Below are positions 1,691-17,311 of a stretch of DNA of 64,000 bases, in pieces. Each line of letters opens with the position of its first letter. Positions within the stretch are counted from its first letter, which is position 1. The notes under the pieces were generated by a model. That model searched no databases. It was not told the origin of the DNA and was given only the letters and a program-made list of their open reading frames with translations. Origin of the DNA: Trametopsis cervina (lineage: Eukaryota > Basidiomycota > Agaricomycetes > Polyporales > Irpicaceae); the NCBI GenBank assembly GCA_022385755.1, contig MU278353.1, positions 358,777-422,776 of the forward strand, written 5' to 3'. Position numbers and translations under genes: made by a program.

Positions 1691-4236
1691 ATGCGCTCCT
1701 CTGCCGTCCTCGCCCTTGCCTTCATCGCCACCGCCGGCCCTGCTCTCGCAGCCCCTATCTCTGCCCGCTCCAGCCATGAGGAATTCATCAACATGCTTGC
1801 TCGCGCAGAAGTCGATGAGAGCGGTGCCCTCCGTCTCCCCACCCTTTCCGAGGCCGCTTCCGCTGCCGGTATCGCTGCCAGCTTGACTGGTGTCTTCAAC
1901 GGTATCGCCCAGCACTTCGGCAACAAGGACAAGCGCGAGATTCTCGAGATGTTGGCTCGCGCAGAAGTCGATGAGAGCGGCGCCCTCCGTCTCCCTACTC
2001 TTGCCGAGGCCGCTTCCGCTGCCGGTATCGCTGCCAGCTTGACTGGTGTCTTCAACGGTATCGCCCAGCACTTCGGCAACAACAATAAGCGCGAGATCCT
2101 CGAGATGTTGGCCCGCGCTGACGTCGATGAGTCCGACGCGCTCAGCTTGAAGAGCATCTCTTCCATCCTTGGTATCGGCAACCTCCTCTCCGGATTCTTC
2201 GGCGGAGGAAACAGCCAGCAGCAGCAACAGCAGCGTCGCGAGTTCATCGAGCTGCTGACCCGCGCTGACGAGAGTGAGGCCTTGAGCATCCCTCCTGGTC
2301 TTGTCTCGGCTGCGAAGAACTTGGGTCACCTCGCAAGCGGTGGTCTGAGTGCCTTCGGTATCTTCCAGAACCTCTTCGGTGGCAACAGCAACCAGCAGCA
2401 GCAGCGCGAGATCCTCGAGCTGTTTGCTCGTGCTGACGTTGACGACGAGTCCGACGCGCTCAGCCTCAAGAGCATCTCGTCCATCCTCGGGATCGGCAAC
2501 CTCCTGTCCGGATTCTTTGGCGGAGGAAACCAGCAGCAGCAACAGCAACGTCGCGAGCTGCTCGACATGCTGACCCGTGCCGATGAGACCGAGGCCCTCA
2601 GTATCCCCTCTGGTCTTGTCAGTGCCGCGAAGAACTTCGGCCATCTTGCTAGCTCCGCCCTCAGCGCGTTCGGTATCTTCAACAACTTGAGCGGCGGGTG
2701 AGTACACATTGAATTTCTCTTCATAGCACCAGATGATCTGACATCTTGCATGATAATAGTGACCAGCAGCAACAGCGCCGTGAAATCGACGAGCTCTTCG
2801 CGCGTGACGATGCCTCCGAGGCTCTCAGCCTCCGCTTGCCTACTCTGGCCGAGGCTGCTTCTGCCGCCGGTATCGCTGCCAGCTTGACCAGCGTGTTCAA
2901 CGGTATCGCCCAACACTTCGGCAACAAGGACAAGCGCGAGATCCTCGAGATCCTCGCCCGCGCCGACGTTGACGAGTCCGACGCCCTTAGCCTGAAGAGC
3001 ATTTCCTCCATCCTCGGCATTGGCAACCTTCTCTCTGGATTCTTCGGCGGAGGCAGCCAGCAGCAACAACAGCAGCGCCGCGAGTTCGTCGAACTCCTGA
3101 CGCGTGCTGATGAGAGCGAGGCCTTGAGCATCCCTCCTGGTCTTGTCTCGGCCGCGAAGAACCTTGGTCACCTCGCCAGCGGTGGCCTGAGCGCGTTCGG
3201 TATCTTCCAGAACCTGTTCGGTGGTAACAACAACCAGCAGCAACAGCGCGAGATCCTCGACCTGTTCACTCGTGCCGATGAGAGCGAGGCCCTGAGCATC
3301 CCTCCGGGTCTTGTCTCGGCTGCGAAGAACTTGGGTCACCTCGCAAGCGGTGGTTTGAGCGCGCTCGGGATCTTCCAGAACCTCTTCGGCAACAACAACC
3401 AGCAGCAGCAGCGTGAGCTCGCTGAGCTGTTCGCCCGCGCGGATGTCGACGAGTCCGATGCTCTCAGCCTGAAGAGCATCTCTTCGATCCTCAACGTCGG
3501 CAACCTCCTGACCAGCTTCTTCGGCGGAGGCAACAGCCAACAGCAGCAGCAACAGCGCCGCGAGCTTGCTGAGCTCCTCGCTCGTGCAGACGACAGCCAG
3601 GCCCTTAGCATCCCTCCCGGCCTTGTCAGCGCCGCCAAGAACCTCGGTCACCTCGCAAGCGGTGGTCTGAGCGCACTCGGCATCTTCCAGAACCTCTTCG
3701 GTAACAACAACCAGCAGCAGCAGCGTGAGCTCGCCGAGCTCTTCGCTCGCGCTGATATCGATGAGTCCGACGCGCTCAGCCTGAAGAGCATTTCCTCGAT
3801 CTTGGGCATTGGCAACCTCATCTCCGGCTTCTTCGGTGGAGGAAACCAGCAGCAGCAACAGAGCCGTGAGCTTGCCGAGCTCCTGGCCCGTGCCGACGAG
3901 AGCGAAGCCCTCAGCATCCCCCCCGGTCTCGTTAGCGCGGCGAAGAACATCGGTCACCTCGCCAGCTCTGGATTGAGCGCGTTTGGCATCTTCCAGAACC
4001 TGTTCGGTGGCAACAACAACCAACAGCAGCAGCGCGAGCTCGTCGAGCTCCTTTCCCGCGCCGACGCGGACGGATCCGAGGCTCTCAGCATTGGCGACAT
4101 CTTCTCCACGCTGCACAACATCTTTAACCTTCGGTATGTTGCCTTTCTCACTCGCTCACTTCAAGCACACGCTGACCGGCTACTCTACAGTGATGACATT
4201 GCGCCCGTAGCGCGCAGCCTTAACGACCTTGACTAA
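1691..4236 (+). CDS. Secreted Kex2-type repeat protein, about 15 units of three peptide types
   Basis: Exons 1691-2697, 2760-4133 and 4191-4236 give 808 aa; the introns are 62 and 57 nt. An N-terminal signal peptide (about 20 residues, ending PALA) is followed by about 15 units of 40-55 aa. Each starts after KR, RR or a single R with an acidic lead such as EILEMLARADVDES and then a hydrophobic, Gly/Ser-rich segment. There are three segment types: A (LPTLAEAASAAGIAAS..., 3 copies), B (LKSISSILGIGNLLSGFF, 5) and C (IPPGLVSAAKNLGHLASG..., 6). The order is A A B C B C A B C C B C B C, plus a short divergent last unit. Glutamine runs (4-6 Q) precede most cleavage sites. Kex2 cleavage in the Golgi would release a peptide set, as in fungal Kex2-processed repeat proteins such as the Ustilago repellent Rep1. 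I infer surface-active, membrane-active or signalling peptides. The exact product is unknown. Confidence 0.85.
1778..4133 (+). repeat. Degenerate tandem coding repeat (three interleaved unit types)
   Basis: About 14 full units of roughly 120-165 bp lie inside the gene and are very similar at the DNA level. For example, the A units at about 1800-1950 and 1960-2100 differ by few bases. CAGCAGCAA-type glutamine tracts mark the unit ends. B and C units mostly alternate, and one C-C neighbour pair (about 3090-3400) points to unequal exchange. Confidence 0.85.
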
Positions 4237-5639: not shown

Positions 5640-7223
5640 ATGCGCTTCTCTTTCGTCTTCGCTACCGCTCTCGTCGCCACCGCGGCCCCCGCCCTCGCCT
5701 ACCCCACAACCACATACACTAACACAGACGCCGCGCCAGCTGCGGACGCACAAGACGACAGCGGTGCGCTCAATCTCGTCGCGTCGCTCGGGCTCCTCTC
5801 GCAGTTGGTCGATGGGTACGTCCTTGCTTGTATTCTAGTCTCAACTCTCCCTGATCAGTGCAATGTGGCATTCAAAGCAGTGACTCAGATGCATCCCAGC
5901 AGCAGAAACGTGCTCTGGCTGAGCTCCTGACCCGCTCCGAGGGCGCATACGACCTGCGCGCGCGGGGGCTGCTCGCACGGCAGGGAGTGACCAATGAGTC
6001 GGGTGCATTGTCGCTCGGGAACATCGGAAACGCCATTCTGCAAATATTTGGCGGAAAGTGCGTCTCTCTGCGGCCCTGCGTTCTCTACACACATTCTGAC
6101 GGAAGTCTTGCACTGTAGGAAGAAGGGCAGTCACGGCGCTAGCGGTAGCACCCGCCATCGTCGCGCTGACGACTTCGACTTCGAGCAACTTGCGCAGGCC
6201 CTGAGCAACCCCGACGTTTTTCAAACGCTCAACGCACGGCAAGCAGTGACCACGCCCGACTCGGATGAATCAGACGCCCTCTCACTAGGCGGCATCGGGA
6301 GAGCTATACTGCGCATCTTCGGAAAGTACGTCTCGTTCGCTTTCTGCGCCGTTCACGCACCTTCTGACGAGGGGATTTCTCTGTAGGAAGAAGGGCGGCC
6401 AAGGCGCCAGCAGTACCACCGGCGGAGGATCGCAGGCCCCCTTCCGACGCGCGGATGACCTCGACGATGTTACGCATGTTCTGACTAACCCCGCTTTCTT
6501 CGACTTTGTCAACGGCGTCGGCCACGTCGCGCGTCGCGAACTTGAGGCGCGCGAGCCGGGTGTCTTCCAACGCCAAGGAGTGGCGGATGAGTCGGACGCG
6601 CTCTCGCTCGGGAACATCGGAAACGCCATTCTGCAAATATTTGGCGGAAAGTACGTCTCTTTGTTGCTCTGTGTTCTCTAGGCACACTCTGACGGGGATC
6701 TTGTGCTGTAGGAAGAAGGGCAGTCACGGCGCTAGCGGTAGCACTCGCCACCGTCGCGCGGATGACCTCGACGCGGTTACGCATGTCCTACTCAACCCCG
6801 ATTTCTTTCACTTCATCAATGGTGTCGGCCACGCCGCGCGTCGCGAACTTGAGGCGCGCGAGCCCGATGTCTTTGAACGCCAAGACGCGACCGATGAGTC
6901 GGGTGCGCTCTCGCTCGGGAACATCGGAAATGCCATTCTGCAGATCTTCGGCGGAAAGTACGTTTCTTCGTTACTCTGCTTTCTCTAGGCACATTCTGAC
7001 GGAGATCTTGCGCTGTAGGAAGAAGGGCAGCCACGGCGCTAGCGGTAGCACCCGCCATCGTCGCGCGGATGACGTCGACTTTGAGCAACTTACGGAGGTC
7101 CTGAGCAACCCCGCCTTTGTTAACTTTGCCAGCGGCGTCGGTCATGCCGTACGTCGCGAACTCGAGGCGCGGGAGCCCGGCATCTTCCAAACGCTGGAGA
7201 ACCTCTTGATCGGGCTTCACTAG
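5640..7223 (+). CDS. Second secreted Kex2-type repeat protein, one repeat per exon
   Basis: Six exons (5640-5815, 5881-6057, 6119-6325, 6387-6650, 6712-6957, 7019-7223) encode 424 aa. The signal peptide MRFSFVFATALVATAAPALA resembles that of the neighbour. Every intron is phase 2, and the last four are each 61 nt, with GTRCGT starts and CTGTAG ends. Exons 3-6 start GAAGAAG, and the split lysine codon plus this sequence makes a KKK site at every junction. Each repeat has a HRRADD block (VTHVL.NP.F, NGVGH..RRELEAREP), then DESGALSLGNIGNAILQIFGG. The DES-ALSL core also occurs in the B units of the gene at 1691, so the genes are related. Likely Kex2 products are the ALSLGNIGNAIL peptide and the ADD/ELEAREP peptides. 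Function unknown; the exon model is firm because all six joins keep frame. Confidence 0.85.
6058..7018 (+). repeat. Tandem exon-intron duplication units
   Basis: Three direct repeats of about 268, 325 and 307 bp each contain one intron and one exon. Both the introns (TTCTGACGG near the branch point, TGTAG end) and the exons (GAAGAAGGGCAG start, GGCGGAAAG end) match. Whole exon-intron blocks were therefore copied, not only coding sequence. Confidence 0.8.
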
Positions 7224-13035: not shown

Positions 13036-14704
13036 CTACGCCTCCGCCACCGCGAGCTTAAACCCCGACGGGGGCCTAACCCCCAACCCCGACTGTTCAT
13101 ACACCTTCTCGACCCACTCCATCGTCGCGATCGACTCTTCCTCGCTCACCCAGCGCTCGGGCTCGCGGCCGCGCACTTTGTCGATGAAGGCCTCGAGTTG
13201 GTAGCGGTATCTGTTGGGGGGTGCGTTAGCAACACATTCACTCAACAACAAAAAGCGAGGAGGCAAAAAAAAGGGAGAAAGATGGTGAGGAGGAGAAAAG
13301 AAAGAAAAGAACGCACGTAGTCCACCACTCCTCGCCCTTCCCCCCATCCGTGGGCCTATACACCTTCTCCACCCTGCTCCTCCTCCCCTTCCCCTCCTTC
13401 CCACTCTTGACACTAACAGTGACACTATGATAAAGCGTCGCCATCACATAATTGAAAATCTCCAGTTCCCCGTTCTCGCACACCACCTTCAATCTGATCT
13501 CGGGGACGATGGGGAGGAAGCCGAAGCGGGGGGGCGCGGCGAGGTGGGTGACGAAGGAGCCGAGGATGTTGGAGGGGTAGGAGAGGGTTGCGTCCATTCC
13601 TGCGTCGATTTGTGAGGGCGCGGGGGGAGAAGAGGAGGAGGAGGTGGGGGGGACGAAGACGTCGGGGGTTACGGAGACTATGGAGAGTGGGTCTGAGCCG
13701 GTGTAGTACCGCAATGTGTTGATGCAGTAGCCTGTCATACGCATAATCAGTGTCAGTACACGATCCAACGCGGTAGCGGAATGGAGGATTGGGATGGAGA
13801 GATGTAATGGGATGGAGAACGTACACCCAAAGTCCATCATCGCCCCTCCCCCGAGGGCATGGTTGAAGCGGATGTCGGTGGGCGGCACCATCCCCTTCGC
13901 GAGGCGCGCACGCGCCTCGATGCTCTTGATCGCACCGAGCTCGCCGCTGTCCAGGATAGCCTTGGCACGTACGTTCACTGGGTGGAATCTGCGACGCAGT
14001 CAGGCTCGGTCATCGAAAACAAGCGAAAACCAAAACGGGAAGACGGAGAAAGGAGAAAGAAGAGCGGAAGGAAGCGAAACGGAAGAACACACCGATAATG
14101 AAACGCCTCCATGAGCACCACCCCCTGCTTCCTCGCAAACTCGAACATCTCGCGCGTCTCCGCAACAGTGTCCGCCGTCGGCTTCTCGAGCAACACATGC
14201 TTCTTCGCCGCGAGCGCCTTCATCGTCCACTCGTAGTGCAGCGCGTTCGGGAGCGGGTTGTACACGACGTCCACCGAGGGGTCGTCCAGCAAATCTGTAC
14301 ACACACGCGGTGAGCGTCCACATCCGTGCAAGTTTCGCATACACGCGAGTTGAAATGGAGGCGCACCTTGATACGCATTAGCCCCGCCATACGCCTTCTC
14401 GATCCCGTGCGTCTTCGCGAACGCCTGTGCGCGCGTGAGGTCGCGCGCTGCGACGGCGTACACTACTGCGTCGGGGTGGCTGATGACTGGGCGGATGAGG
14501 GCCTCGGGCGCGATGGCTGCTGCACCGAGGATGCCGAAGCGTAGCGGGTTGGCGGTTTTCTCGGCTTTGGGCGGGTGGCCGACCTATGTGCGCACCACGA
14601 AGTGAATGAGGTCAGGTTAGCACGACTCCTATTCGCTACGAATGTGAAGGGGGAGAATGACGTACGGTGTATAACCTCTTCAGCAGACCGATGAACGATG
14701 CCAT
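13036..14704 (-). CDS. Gfo/Idh/MocA family NAD(P)-dependent oxidoreductase (dihydrodiol/D-xylose dehydrogenase-like), copy 1
   Basis: Six exons (14704-14666, 14583-14367, 14294-14093, 13988-13825, 13731-13317, 13210-13036) give 403 aa, close to family size. The N-terminal Rossmann domain has the strand-loop FGILGAAAIA at about residue 28. The family EKP motif follows (HVLLEKPTADT), which supplies the lysine used in catalysis and cofactor binding. The C-terminal domain has GGGAMMDFGCY and the substrate-side segment WVSEEESIATMEWVEKVYE. Likely reaction: NADP-linked oxidation of an aldose or a trans-dihydrodiol; the substrate cannot be read from sequence. A second copy in the same orientation starts 2.6 kb upstream (at 17311). 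The fourth donor had a choice of GTGTAC or GTACGT; only GTACGT restores frame to the following GCY codons. Confidence 0.88.
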
Positions 14705-15915: not shown

Positions 15916-17311
15916 TCATAAAACACAAACACTCACCTTCTCATACACCCTCTCAACCCACTCCATCGTATTCACCGAATCCTCAGGCGTCACCCAACAC
16001 GCAGGCTCCCGTCCCCTCACCCGATCCACGAACGCCTCTAGCTGGTAGCGATACCTACATCCCCATCCCCATCCTCATCAGCACACCTCCACAACTCTCG
16101 AAAAAGCAGGTATACGCACGTAGACCACCACTCCTCGCCCCTCCCCTCCTTTGGCTTATACACCCTCTCCACCCTCTTCCCCTCCCTCTTCCCTCCCTCG
16201 AAGCGAGTGACACTGATAGAATGATACACACTCGGCATAACATGATTGAACAACTCCATCTCGCCCTCTTCGCCCGTCACGACCACCGACATCTCAGGTA
16301 CGATCGGCACGAACCCGAGACGCGGTGGCGCGCCGAGGTGTGTCGTCAGACTTGCTGTTACGGAGTTAGGGAAGAGGAGGGTTGCGTGCATCCCTGCGTC
16401 CACCAACCCTGCATCCATGTCCGGCGAGCGGGAGCGGGGGACGAAGACGTCCGCCGTAGCAGACGTAACACACACCGGGCTCGTGCCGGCAAAGTACAGC
16501 AAGACGTTCATCGCATAACATCCCAGATCCATCATCGCGCCTCCCCCAAGGCTATACACATACCGGATATCCCCCTCCCCGAACATCCCCCTCGGCAGGC
16601 GCATCCGTACGTCCATGTGCTTTATCCGTCCGAGCGAGCCGCTGGAGAGGAGCGATTTGGCGTGCGTGAGTGCAGGATGGAATCTGCGACGTCGAGTTGA
16701 GAAAGAGGTGGGAAGGAAGAAGACAAGGACACACCGATAATGCATCCCCTCAAGCAACACCACCCCCCTCCTCCTCGCCTCCCCAAACATCATCCGCGTC
16801 TCGTCCGCCCGATGCGCAGACGGCTTCTCGAGCAAAACATGCTTCCCCGCGCCGAGCGCCTTCAGTGTCCATTCGTGGTGCAGCGCGTTTGGGAGCTAGC
16901 CTCCCCATTTTTCTTTTGTTCAGCTCCGTCTGTTCCGTTCCGTTCTACGCAGAGGAAGAGAGACGCACGGGGTTGTAGATGACGTCCACTAGCGGATCAT
17001 CCAGCATCTCTACACCCCCCTTTCATCAACACCCCTTCCCTCCTCAACACACAAAGCGAGAACGCACCCTGATACCCCCCAACCCTCTCGACCCCCCACT
17101 TCCGCGCAAACCTCTCTGCCCTGGCCAAATTACGGGAGGCGACGCCGTATACTACGACTTCGGGGTGGGAGAGCGAGGGGAGGATGAGTGCGTGGGGGGC
17201 GATGGTTGATGTGCCGAGGAGGGCGAGGTGGAGGGGGTGGGGGTGTTTTGGGGGGGTTGGGGGGTGGTGCATGAGGTAGTTGCGTTTCAGTAGGCCAACC
17301 AGGGACGACAT
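15916..17311 (-). CDS. Gfo/Idh/MocA family oxidoreductase, copy 2
   Basis: Exons 17311-17068, 17009-16969, 16895-16735, 16683-16120 and 16054-15916 give 382 aa. It is a paralogue of the gene at 13036: same start (MSSLVGLLKR versus MASFIGLLKR), EKP motif (LLEKPSAHR), GGGAMMDLGCY, FGLPIV-type strand (LGFVPIVPE) and shared final exon. The intron pattern differs. Copy 2 lacks the first intron and the GCY intron of copy 1 but has an extra intron splitting YNP from LPNALH. The C-terminus is shorter: after VYEK the frame reads VSVCVL and stops. A sequence encoding ETGLGML in another frame lies just beyond and resembles the longer tail of copy 1, so a small indel may have cut the tail. Confidence 0.85.

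Follow-up and report, generated by a model that had tools for sequence, protein, structure and literature searches.

A putative kexin-processed repeat precursor with three interleaved core classes in the polypore Trametopsis cervina

The window, by which we mean the whole stretch of 64,000 nucleotides analysed here, lies on contig C6 of the 29.4 Mb assembly of Trametopsis cervina, a polypore of the family Irpicaceae (Polyporales). Near its start lies a gene, hereafter gene A (Table 1), whose model, built from the sequence, comprises three exons (1691-2697, 2760-4133 and 4191-4236, stop included) separated by two phase 2 introns of 62 (2698-2759) and 57 bases (4134-4190), and encodes a repeat protein of 808 residues. 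A database search returned the hypothetical protein BDW22DRAFT_1427234 of the same species (P0001), with 100% identity over 100% of the 808 residues. The protein opens with a putative signal peptide that is convincing by eye, its relatives starting alike, and is built of 15 units, which, the first excepted, are 47-56 residues long. An antisense open frame of 609 codons (2329-4155, reverse strand) overlaps gene A and probably arises from codon bias and the repeats. Of ten large open frames examined in the rest of the window, three gave Pfam matches (Tcp11 and two GFO/IDH/MocA), none of them to a peptide-modifying enzyme; the two GFO/IDH/MocA oxidoreductase stretches lie close together on the reverse strand (13241-13999 and 16041-16895).

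Table 1. Gene A, its units and further KEP-type genes of Trametopsis cervina. Positions are those of the window unless a contig is named.
Feature	Position	Strand	Remarks
Gene A, KEP-type precursor, 808 aa	1691..4236	+	gene model and identical public protein P0001
Putative signal peptide MRSSAVLALAFIATAGPALA	1691..1750	+	by eye; similar start in relatives
Unit 1, class A, with signal peptide and N-terminal stretch	1691..1936	+	end KR
Unit 2, class A	1937..2092	+	end KR
Unit 3, class B	2093..2239	+	end RR
Unit 4, class C	2240..2407	+	end QR
Unit 5, class B	2408..2554	+	end RR
Unit 6, class C	2555..2781	+	end RR; intron 2698-2759 inside
Unit 7, class A	2782..2937	+	end KR
Unit 8, class B	2938..3081	+	end RR
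Unit 9, class C	3082..3249	+	end QR
Unit 10, class C	3250..3414	+	end QR
Unit 11, class B	3415..3561	+	end RR
Unit 12, class C	3562..3726	+	end QR
Unit 13, class B	3727..3867	+	end SR
Unit 14, class C	3868..4035	+	end QR
Unit 15, short divergent core D	4036..4236	+	C-terminal tail RSLNDLD; intron 4134-4190 inside
Gene B, KEP-type, six exons, 424 aa, core LSLGNIGNAILQIFGG	5640..7223	+	identical public protein P0012
Gene C, KEP-type	C1, near 2,677,700-2,679,679	-	full spacer EFHELLARADDES, cores SIFSFFGKLLTGLIG and SIFSTLGDIFKNILG, tail RSLNELD
Gene D, KEP-type	C11, from 773,929	-	cores such as SGALSFGSLFKFAASALGSLFGG, NNQRR ends, spacer different

The units follow the order A A B C B C A B C C B C B C and close with a short, divergent unit D, exactly as a sequence-only reading of the locus had listed them; its three alternating classes, encoded by one transcript in a set proportion, likewise stand, at a copy ratio A:B:C of 3:5:6 plus one D. 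At the DNA level the repeats stand far above chance: they fall into three families, 239-300 nt in length, whose 3-6 copies are 62-88% identical to the reference copy. Among the 14 internal unit ends, KR occurs 3 times, RR 5, QR 5 and SR once, so that eight are dibasic and six carry a single Arg, and they follow class: KR closes all three A units, RR four of the five B units (SR the fifth) and QR five of the six C units (RR the sixth). The same reading had proposed a Kex2-type repeat architecture, which the 15 units and eight dibasic ends bear out, with units ending in KR, RR or R after a glutamine run; class A units, however, close with GNKDKR or GNNNKR and have no glutamine run.

By its sequence architecture, the gene A product is a KEX2-processed repeat protein (KEP), a known kind of precursor. 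Like the KEPs presented in the pertinent sections of three studies (PMC6339444; PMC7329392; PMC9769878), it is a putatively secreted precursor of repeated units with kexin sites between them, and it carries three to six copies of each main class where at least three repeated units, separated by dibasic sites, define a KEP. According to the same sections, KEPs occur in Agaricomycetes, where peptide release has been shown. Other identities fell away on inspection. A Pfam match to DinB_2, above the cut-off at E 2.9e-18, covers only profile positions 3-52 of 128, across a unit boundary, and is considered repeat-driven. The remaining Pfam matches to the spliced protein stay below their cut-offs (V_ATPase_I_N passes narrowly with exon 2 alone), NCBIfam matches to encapsulin and Tim17 lie far below theirs, and the comparison with solved structures gave no match to the gene A protein.

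Two database searches, each scoring the roughly 8,000 candidates that shared most words with the query, matched 9 and 11 proteins, gene A itself included. Their named sources are Trametopsis cervina, Irpex rosettiformis (two proteins), Hermanssonia centrifuga and Phlebiopsis gigantea, all Polyporales, and no smut protein is among these 9 and 11 matches. The comparisons below use 13 precursors, namely P0001-P0012 and a draft of gene C. In seven of them (gene A, at window positions 4191-4233, P0002, P0004-P0007 and gene C) the protein closes with the tail [RK]S[IL]N[DE]LD, which is more constant than the cores; five others stop at a core, their last exon being perhaps absent from the model, and the end of gene B differs from both. 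The passages searched in the Phlebiopsis gigantea transcriptome paper (PMC4256170) do not mention a gene A homolog.

The Trametopsis cervina genome holds at least three further KEP-type genes with related core motifs, one of them adjacent to gene A. Gene B lies 1.4 kb downstream; its product is BDW22DRAFT_1058962, for which the search gave only one further match, gene A's relative in Hermanssonia (E 3.7e-7). Its introns recur after cores and its unit plan is different, with ADDxD... and ELEAREP... stretches between RR sites. Gene C has about one unit per exon and shares both spacer and tail with gene A; we take its short cores to be temporin-like, and its draft splice is rough, with the first two units wrongly joined. 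In gene D, which is unspliced and stands outside all counts, S-x-A-x-x-FGS(L/I)FK cores alternate with VLKQILEASGNLQRR-like stretches. A pattern search of the species' own genome returned 10 matches, 8 of them in genes A and B, against 2 for the reversed control pattern; those at C1:1568822 and C18:459520 are taken as chance matches, with stops in the frame nearby or the spacer missing. One kexin gene was found, on contig C5, with one P-domain match and an S8 domain in the same gene region; introns may hide others, and three kexins are given for Coprinopsis in the relevant part of PMC9769878. Serine carboxypeptidase matches number 44 at the level of the S10 family. Fourteen of these fall within C6:3435-54845, in the first 55 kb of gene A's contig, which suggests a local gene cluster.

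The units of gene A open with a spacer, for example EILEMLAR or ELAELLAR, that is near-constant as ExxELLAR across the subfamily and places a second kexin-type site, LxxR, ahead of the cores. A fixed expression found 98 spacers in the 13 precursors, 70 of them eight residues long, 76 ending in AR and 60 following a dibasic pair; the expression itself constrains one position of the first site (P1') and two of the second (P3 and P4), omits unit 6 of gene A and overlaps in P0007. The second site was also counted from the core side, independently of the spacer expression, which gave 120 cores, 115 of them with an Arg at most 14 residues upstream. At P4 of the nearest such Arg, Leu occurs in 74 of 115 cases, whereas the remaining 268 Arg residues of these proteins have it in 29; counting Leu, Ile, Val and Ala together raises the figure to 97 of 115. 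All 15 gene A sites have one of three residues at P4, with Leu at 10, Met at 4 and Ile at 1. LxxR is listed, in the sections consulted of a review, as an extended Kex2 motif with Leu or another aliphatic residue at P4, Arg at P1 and a variable P2 (PMC8528282).

Yeast kexins favour acidic residues at P1', P2' and P4', as set out in part of PMC2515848. Two of these three preferences are seen at the LxxR site, where acidic residues occupy P2' in 86, P4' in 82, P5' in 71, P3' in 27 and P1' in only 15 of 115 cases. Two of the three are also seen at the unit end, P1' there being partly built in by the search expression; in the spacer-expression count, P4' is acidic in 75 of 98 and P2' in 7 of 98. 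Ala fills P2 of the LxxR site in 91 of 115 cases and is absent from the five best Lys alternatives given in the review's section on this point (PMC8528282), which counts against a kexin cut there. Because Q, S and T at P2 score zero in the matrix rows of PMC2515848, cutting at QR, SR and LTR is disfavoured. Single-Arg cleavage was observed for Coprinopsis KEPs produced in Pichia, and Gln ends of Coprinopsis KEP peptides occur as pyroglutamate, according to portions of PMC9769878; Gln directly follows the LxxR site in 27 of the 98 spacers.

That the three cores are unrelated, and that having them in one precursor is unusual, were further claims of the sequence-only reading. The core set behind the within-gene scores, the constraint and periodicity run and the 60% clusters used 14 of the 15 gene A units, unit 6 lacking the S-x-A motif employed; ten entries were removed as mis-cut and four restored by hand. 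Compared directly within gene A, the cores do look unrelated: against shuffles, neither A-C (z 1.2) nor B-C (z 1.5) stands out, and A-B is weak (z 3.3, with 2 of 200 shuffles as high). The corresponding classes of Irpex P0002 are, in contrast, interlinked (z 5.9-11.5 among a, b and c), a fourth core of that protein having no clear link to b or c. Each gene A class scores best with its counterpart there: class A with a (z 15.1; b 5.7 and 7.1; c 5.5), class B with b (4.7 and 6.7; a 3.6; c 1.0) and class C with c (5.6; a 1.5; b 0.2 and 0.4). The metagenome protein P0003 gives a better match than Irpex to class C (z 7.8) and a nearly equal one to class B (z 6.1). Because the Irpex P0002 cores link all three classes, A, B and C are most likely divergent descendants of one repeat, and their split may be older than the divergence of Trametopsis and Irpex. 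A tree of 17 cores over 28 columns agrees with such an early split without proving it: for each of the three classes, the Trametopsis cores fall together with those of Irpex rosettiformis P0002 and of P0004 (support 64/92, 56/85 and 93/91 for A, B and C), on few columns and long branches and with groups named after the pairwise scores were known, and the AU test does not reject one shared origin for all cores of Trametopsis (p-AU 0.084). Nor, within this family, is the mixture unusual: with cores clustered at 60% identity, 6 of the 13 precursors hold more than one multi-copy class, and three form a single cluster. Between genera the cores diverge strongly while the frame stays.

Within gene A the copies are strongly constrained, silent-site divergence far exceeding that of the protein. 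Synonymous and nonsynonymous differences per site are 0.327 and 0.029 for A, 0.469 and 0.069 for B and 0.469 and 0.095 for C, for between-copy dN/dS values of 0.069, 0.099 and 0.138 (3, 5 and 6 copies, gene conversion being outside the model). The family cores, sampled as 52 out of 101 distinct cores thinned at 70% identity and thus related rather than independent, have a hydrophobicity spectrum that peaks between 100 degrees (z 11.2) and 110 degrees (z 12.7), with 0 of 1000 shuffles as high, falls below the null at 170 degrees and shows a lesser, unexplained peak at 130 degrees (z 3.4). This pattern points to the periodicity of an α-helix, not of β-structure. Taken singly, the cores of gene A reach p 0.22 (A) and 0.17 (B), both not significant, 0.03 (C) and 0.05 (D), and the strongest single-core periodicity belongs to gene C cores such as SIFSTLGDIFKNILG (p 0.0015). 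AlphaFold places many helices along the whole protein (mean pLDDT 41, pTM 0.27, only 9 aligned sequences), and neither this model nor that of units 8-9 (mean pLDDT 47), both of low confidence, contains a strand of three or more residues or a compact fold. By hand count, peptides of all three main classes have a negative charge, about -2 to -3.

Gene A differs from KEPs at large in its spacer with a second LxxR-type site, its interleaved multi-copy core classes and its long amphipathic cores; the sections at hand describe peptides from Coprinopsis, Lentinula and Pleurotus that are short and mostly hydrophilic (PMC6339444; PMC7329392; PMC9769878). The lead to Rep1 that the sequence-only reading had given is supported. 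In the portions of PMC4617103 dealing with them, Rep1 and Hum3 of Ustilago maydis, set beside gene A here by description, are likewise basidiomycete proteins with imperfect amphipathic repeats and Kex2 sites; they are comparable to gene A in length, at 652 and 828 residues, and in repeat size, at 34-55 and 31-36 residues, respectively. The units of gene A match the amphipathic repeats of about 35-55 residues with Kex2 sites that characterise the Rep1 type, their amphipathic periodicity being apparent at family level. Rep1 peptides, however, form amyloid-like fibrils, whereas the family cores of gene A appear helical without β periodicity, and Hum3, unlike gene A, has a hydrophobin domain (PMC4617103). 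Ece1p of Candida albicans, also compared by description, resembles what is predicted for gene A in being one secreted precursor that gives several peptides, through seven KR sites, Kex2 cutting and Kex1 trimming, but has 271 residues, repeats less conserved than those of Rep1 and, in the passages concerned, no recurring classes (PMC5784256; PMC2515848). Gene A may work most like the smut amphipathic repellents, with helical rather than amyloid-type cores.

The reading we favour, with moderate confidence, is that gene A encodes a secreted KEP polyprotein that kexin cuts into anionic amphipathic peptides, most likely acting at interfaces rather than as receptor ligands. After removal of the signal peptide, Golgi kexin would cut each unit boundary at up to two places, one behind the basic pair or lone Arg closing a unit and the other behind the LxxR that closes the acidic, eight-residue spacer; a KEX1-type carboxypeptidase would then trim the basic ends. 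We infer cleavage, trimming and helix formation alike; the predicted products are peptides of about 38-47 residues with an acidic head, a hydrophobic helix and a short N/Q-rich or polar tail, released as three classes in the ratio of their copies together with one short D. It is the shape of these peptides that suggests a role at interfaces, be it the hyphal surface, the air-water interface or the membranes of other organisms. Six Coprinopsis kep knockouts described in part of PMC9769878 had no phenotype, which counts against this reading.

An offensive form of the interfacial reading, possible though rather unlikely, would have the peptides secreted against competitors or grazers, the classes jointly disrupting target membranes. 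The helical periodicity of the family cores, strongest singly in gene C, speaks for it, as do the diversity of cores inside a conserved frame, which fits an arms race, and the derivation of the cytolytic candidalysin from a KEP (PMC9769878, in part); yet the A, B and C peptides are anionic, while classical antimicrobials are cationic, synthetic Coprinopsis KEP peptides of other families had no antibacterial activity in the section reporting them (PMC9769878), and the copies of gene A are strongly constrained. A further reading, speculative and unlikely, is that the mixture itself is the conserved trait, the three helical classes, distinct before Trametopsis and Irpex split, being kept in one precursor for delivery in set proportion and joint assembly at an interface. 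Their C-termini would then differ by class, as A units close with KR, B units mostly with RR and C units mostly with QR, and class C would retain the spacer as an additional helix.

That the peptides are signals or hormones, each class recognised by a separate receptor, either in the fungus itself or in a partner, seems decidedly unlikely. α-Pheromones derive from KEPs (PMC9769878, in part) and the cores are under purifying constraint, but the XA/XP (STE13) dipeptide ladder expected after dibasic sites is absent from all 14 gene A unit starts, which read EI, EF or EL, the cores change strongly between genera inside a constant frame, and their size and hydrophobicity would suit interfaces better. 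Still more doubtful is an uncut protein working whole as a repetitive, helical component of wall or matrix: the six non-dibasic ends and the many helices modelled along the chain would suit it, but the combination of a near-constant spacer with two kexin-type motifs around it is repeated across relatives, and the model, at its low confidence, has no compact fold. To our knowledge, known dikaritins are cyclised through Tyr. A precursor of a cyclised RiPP of this type is very improbable here: the precursor architecture is alike, UstYa (DUF3328) has five matches in the genome and such genes neighbour 22% of KEP genes in the survey section consulted (PMC7329392), but C1, C11 and C18 account for all five and C6 has none, and the A, B and C cores contain no Tyr. 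Scarcely credible is a calcium-binding EF-hand protein, after the database name of the Hermanssonia relative: the spacer-core junction D-x-D-x-S-G resembles half an EF-hand loop, P0003 and P0005 carry public EF-hand assignments and gene A has sub-cut-off EF-hand matches, but loop position 12 is acidic in only 2 of 44 loops in the 12 database proteins.

What appears new here is a subfamily marked by the near-constant ExxELLAR spacer, the second LxxR site and a mixture of core classes that recurs in Irpex. Among the papers listed by full-text searches of open-licence literature, none was recognised as describing it; its Phlebiopsis and Hermanssonia members may stand in the supplementary tables of KEP surveys. 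KEPs are widespread in fungi and their functions largely unknown, as stated in the part of PMC9769878 concerned. The subfamily offers a handle on them, with a conserved frame around changing cores and a core-class mixture found again in a relative, and its two predicted cuts per boundary can be checked by mass spectrometry. If the LxxR cuts are real, surveys that consider only KR, RR and KK would draw the wrong peptide ends in such proteins.
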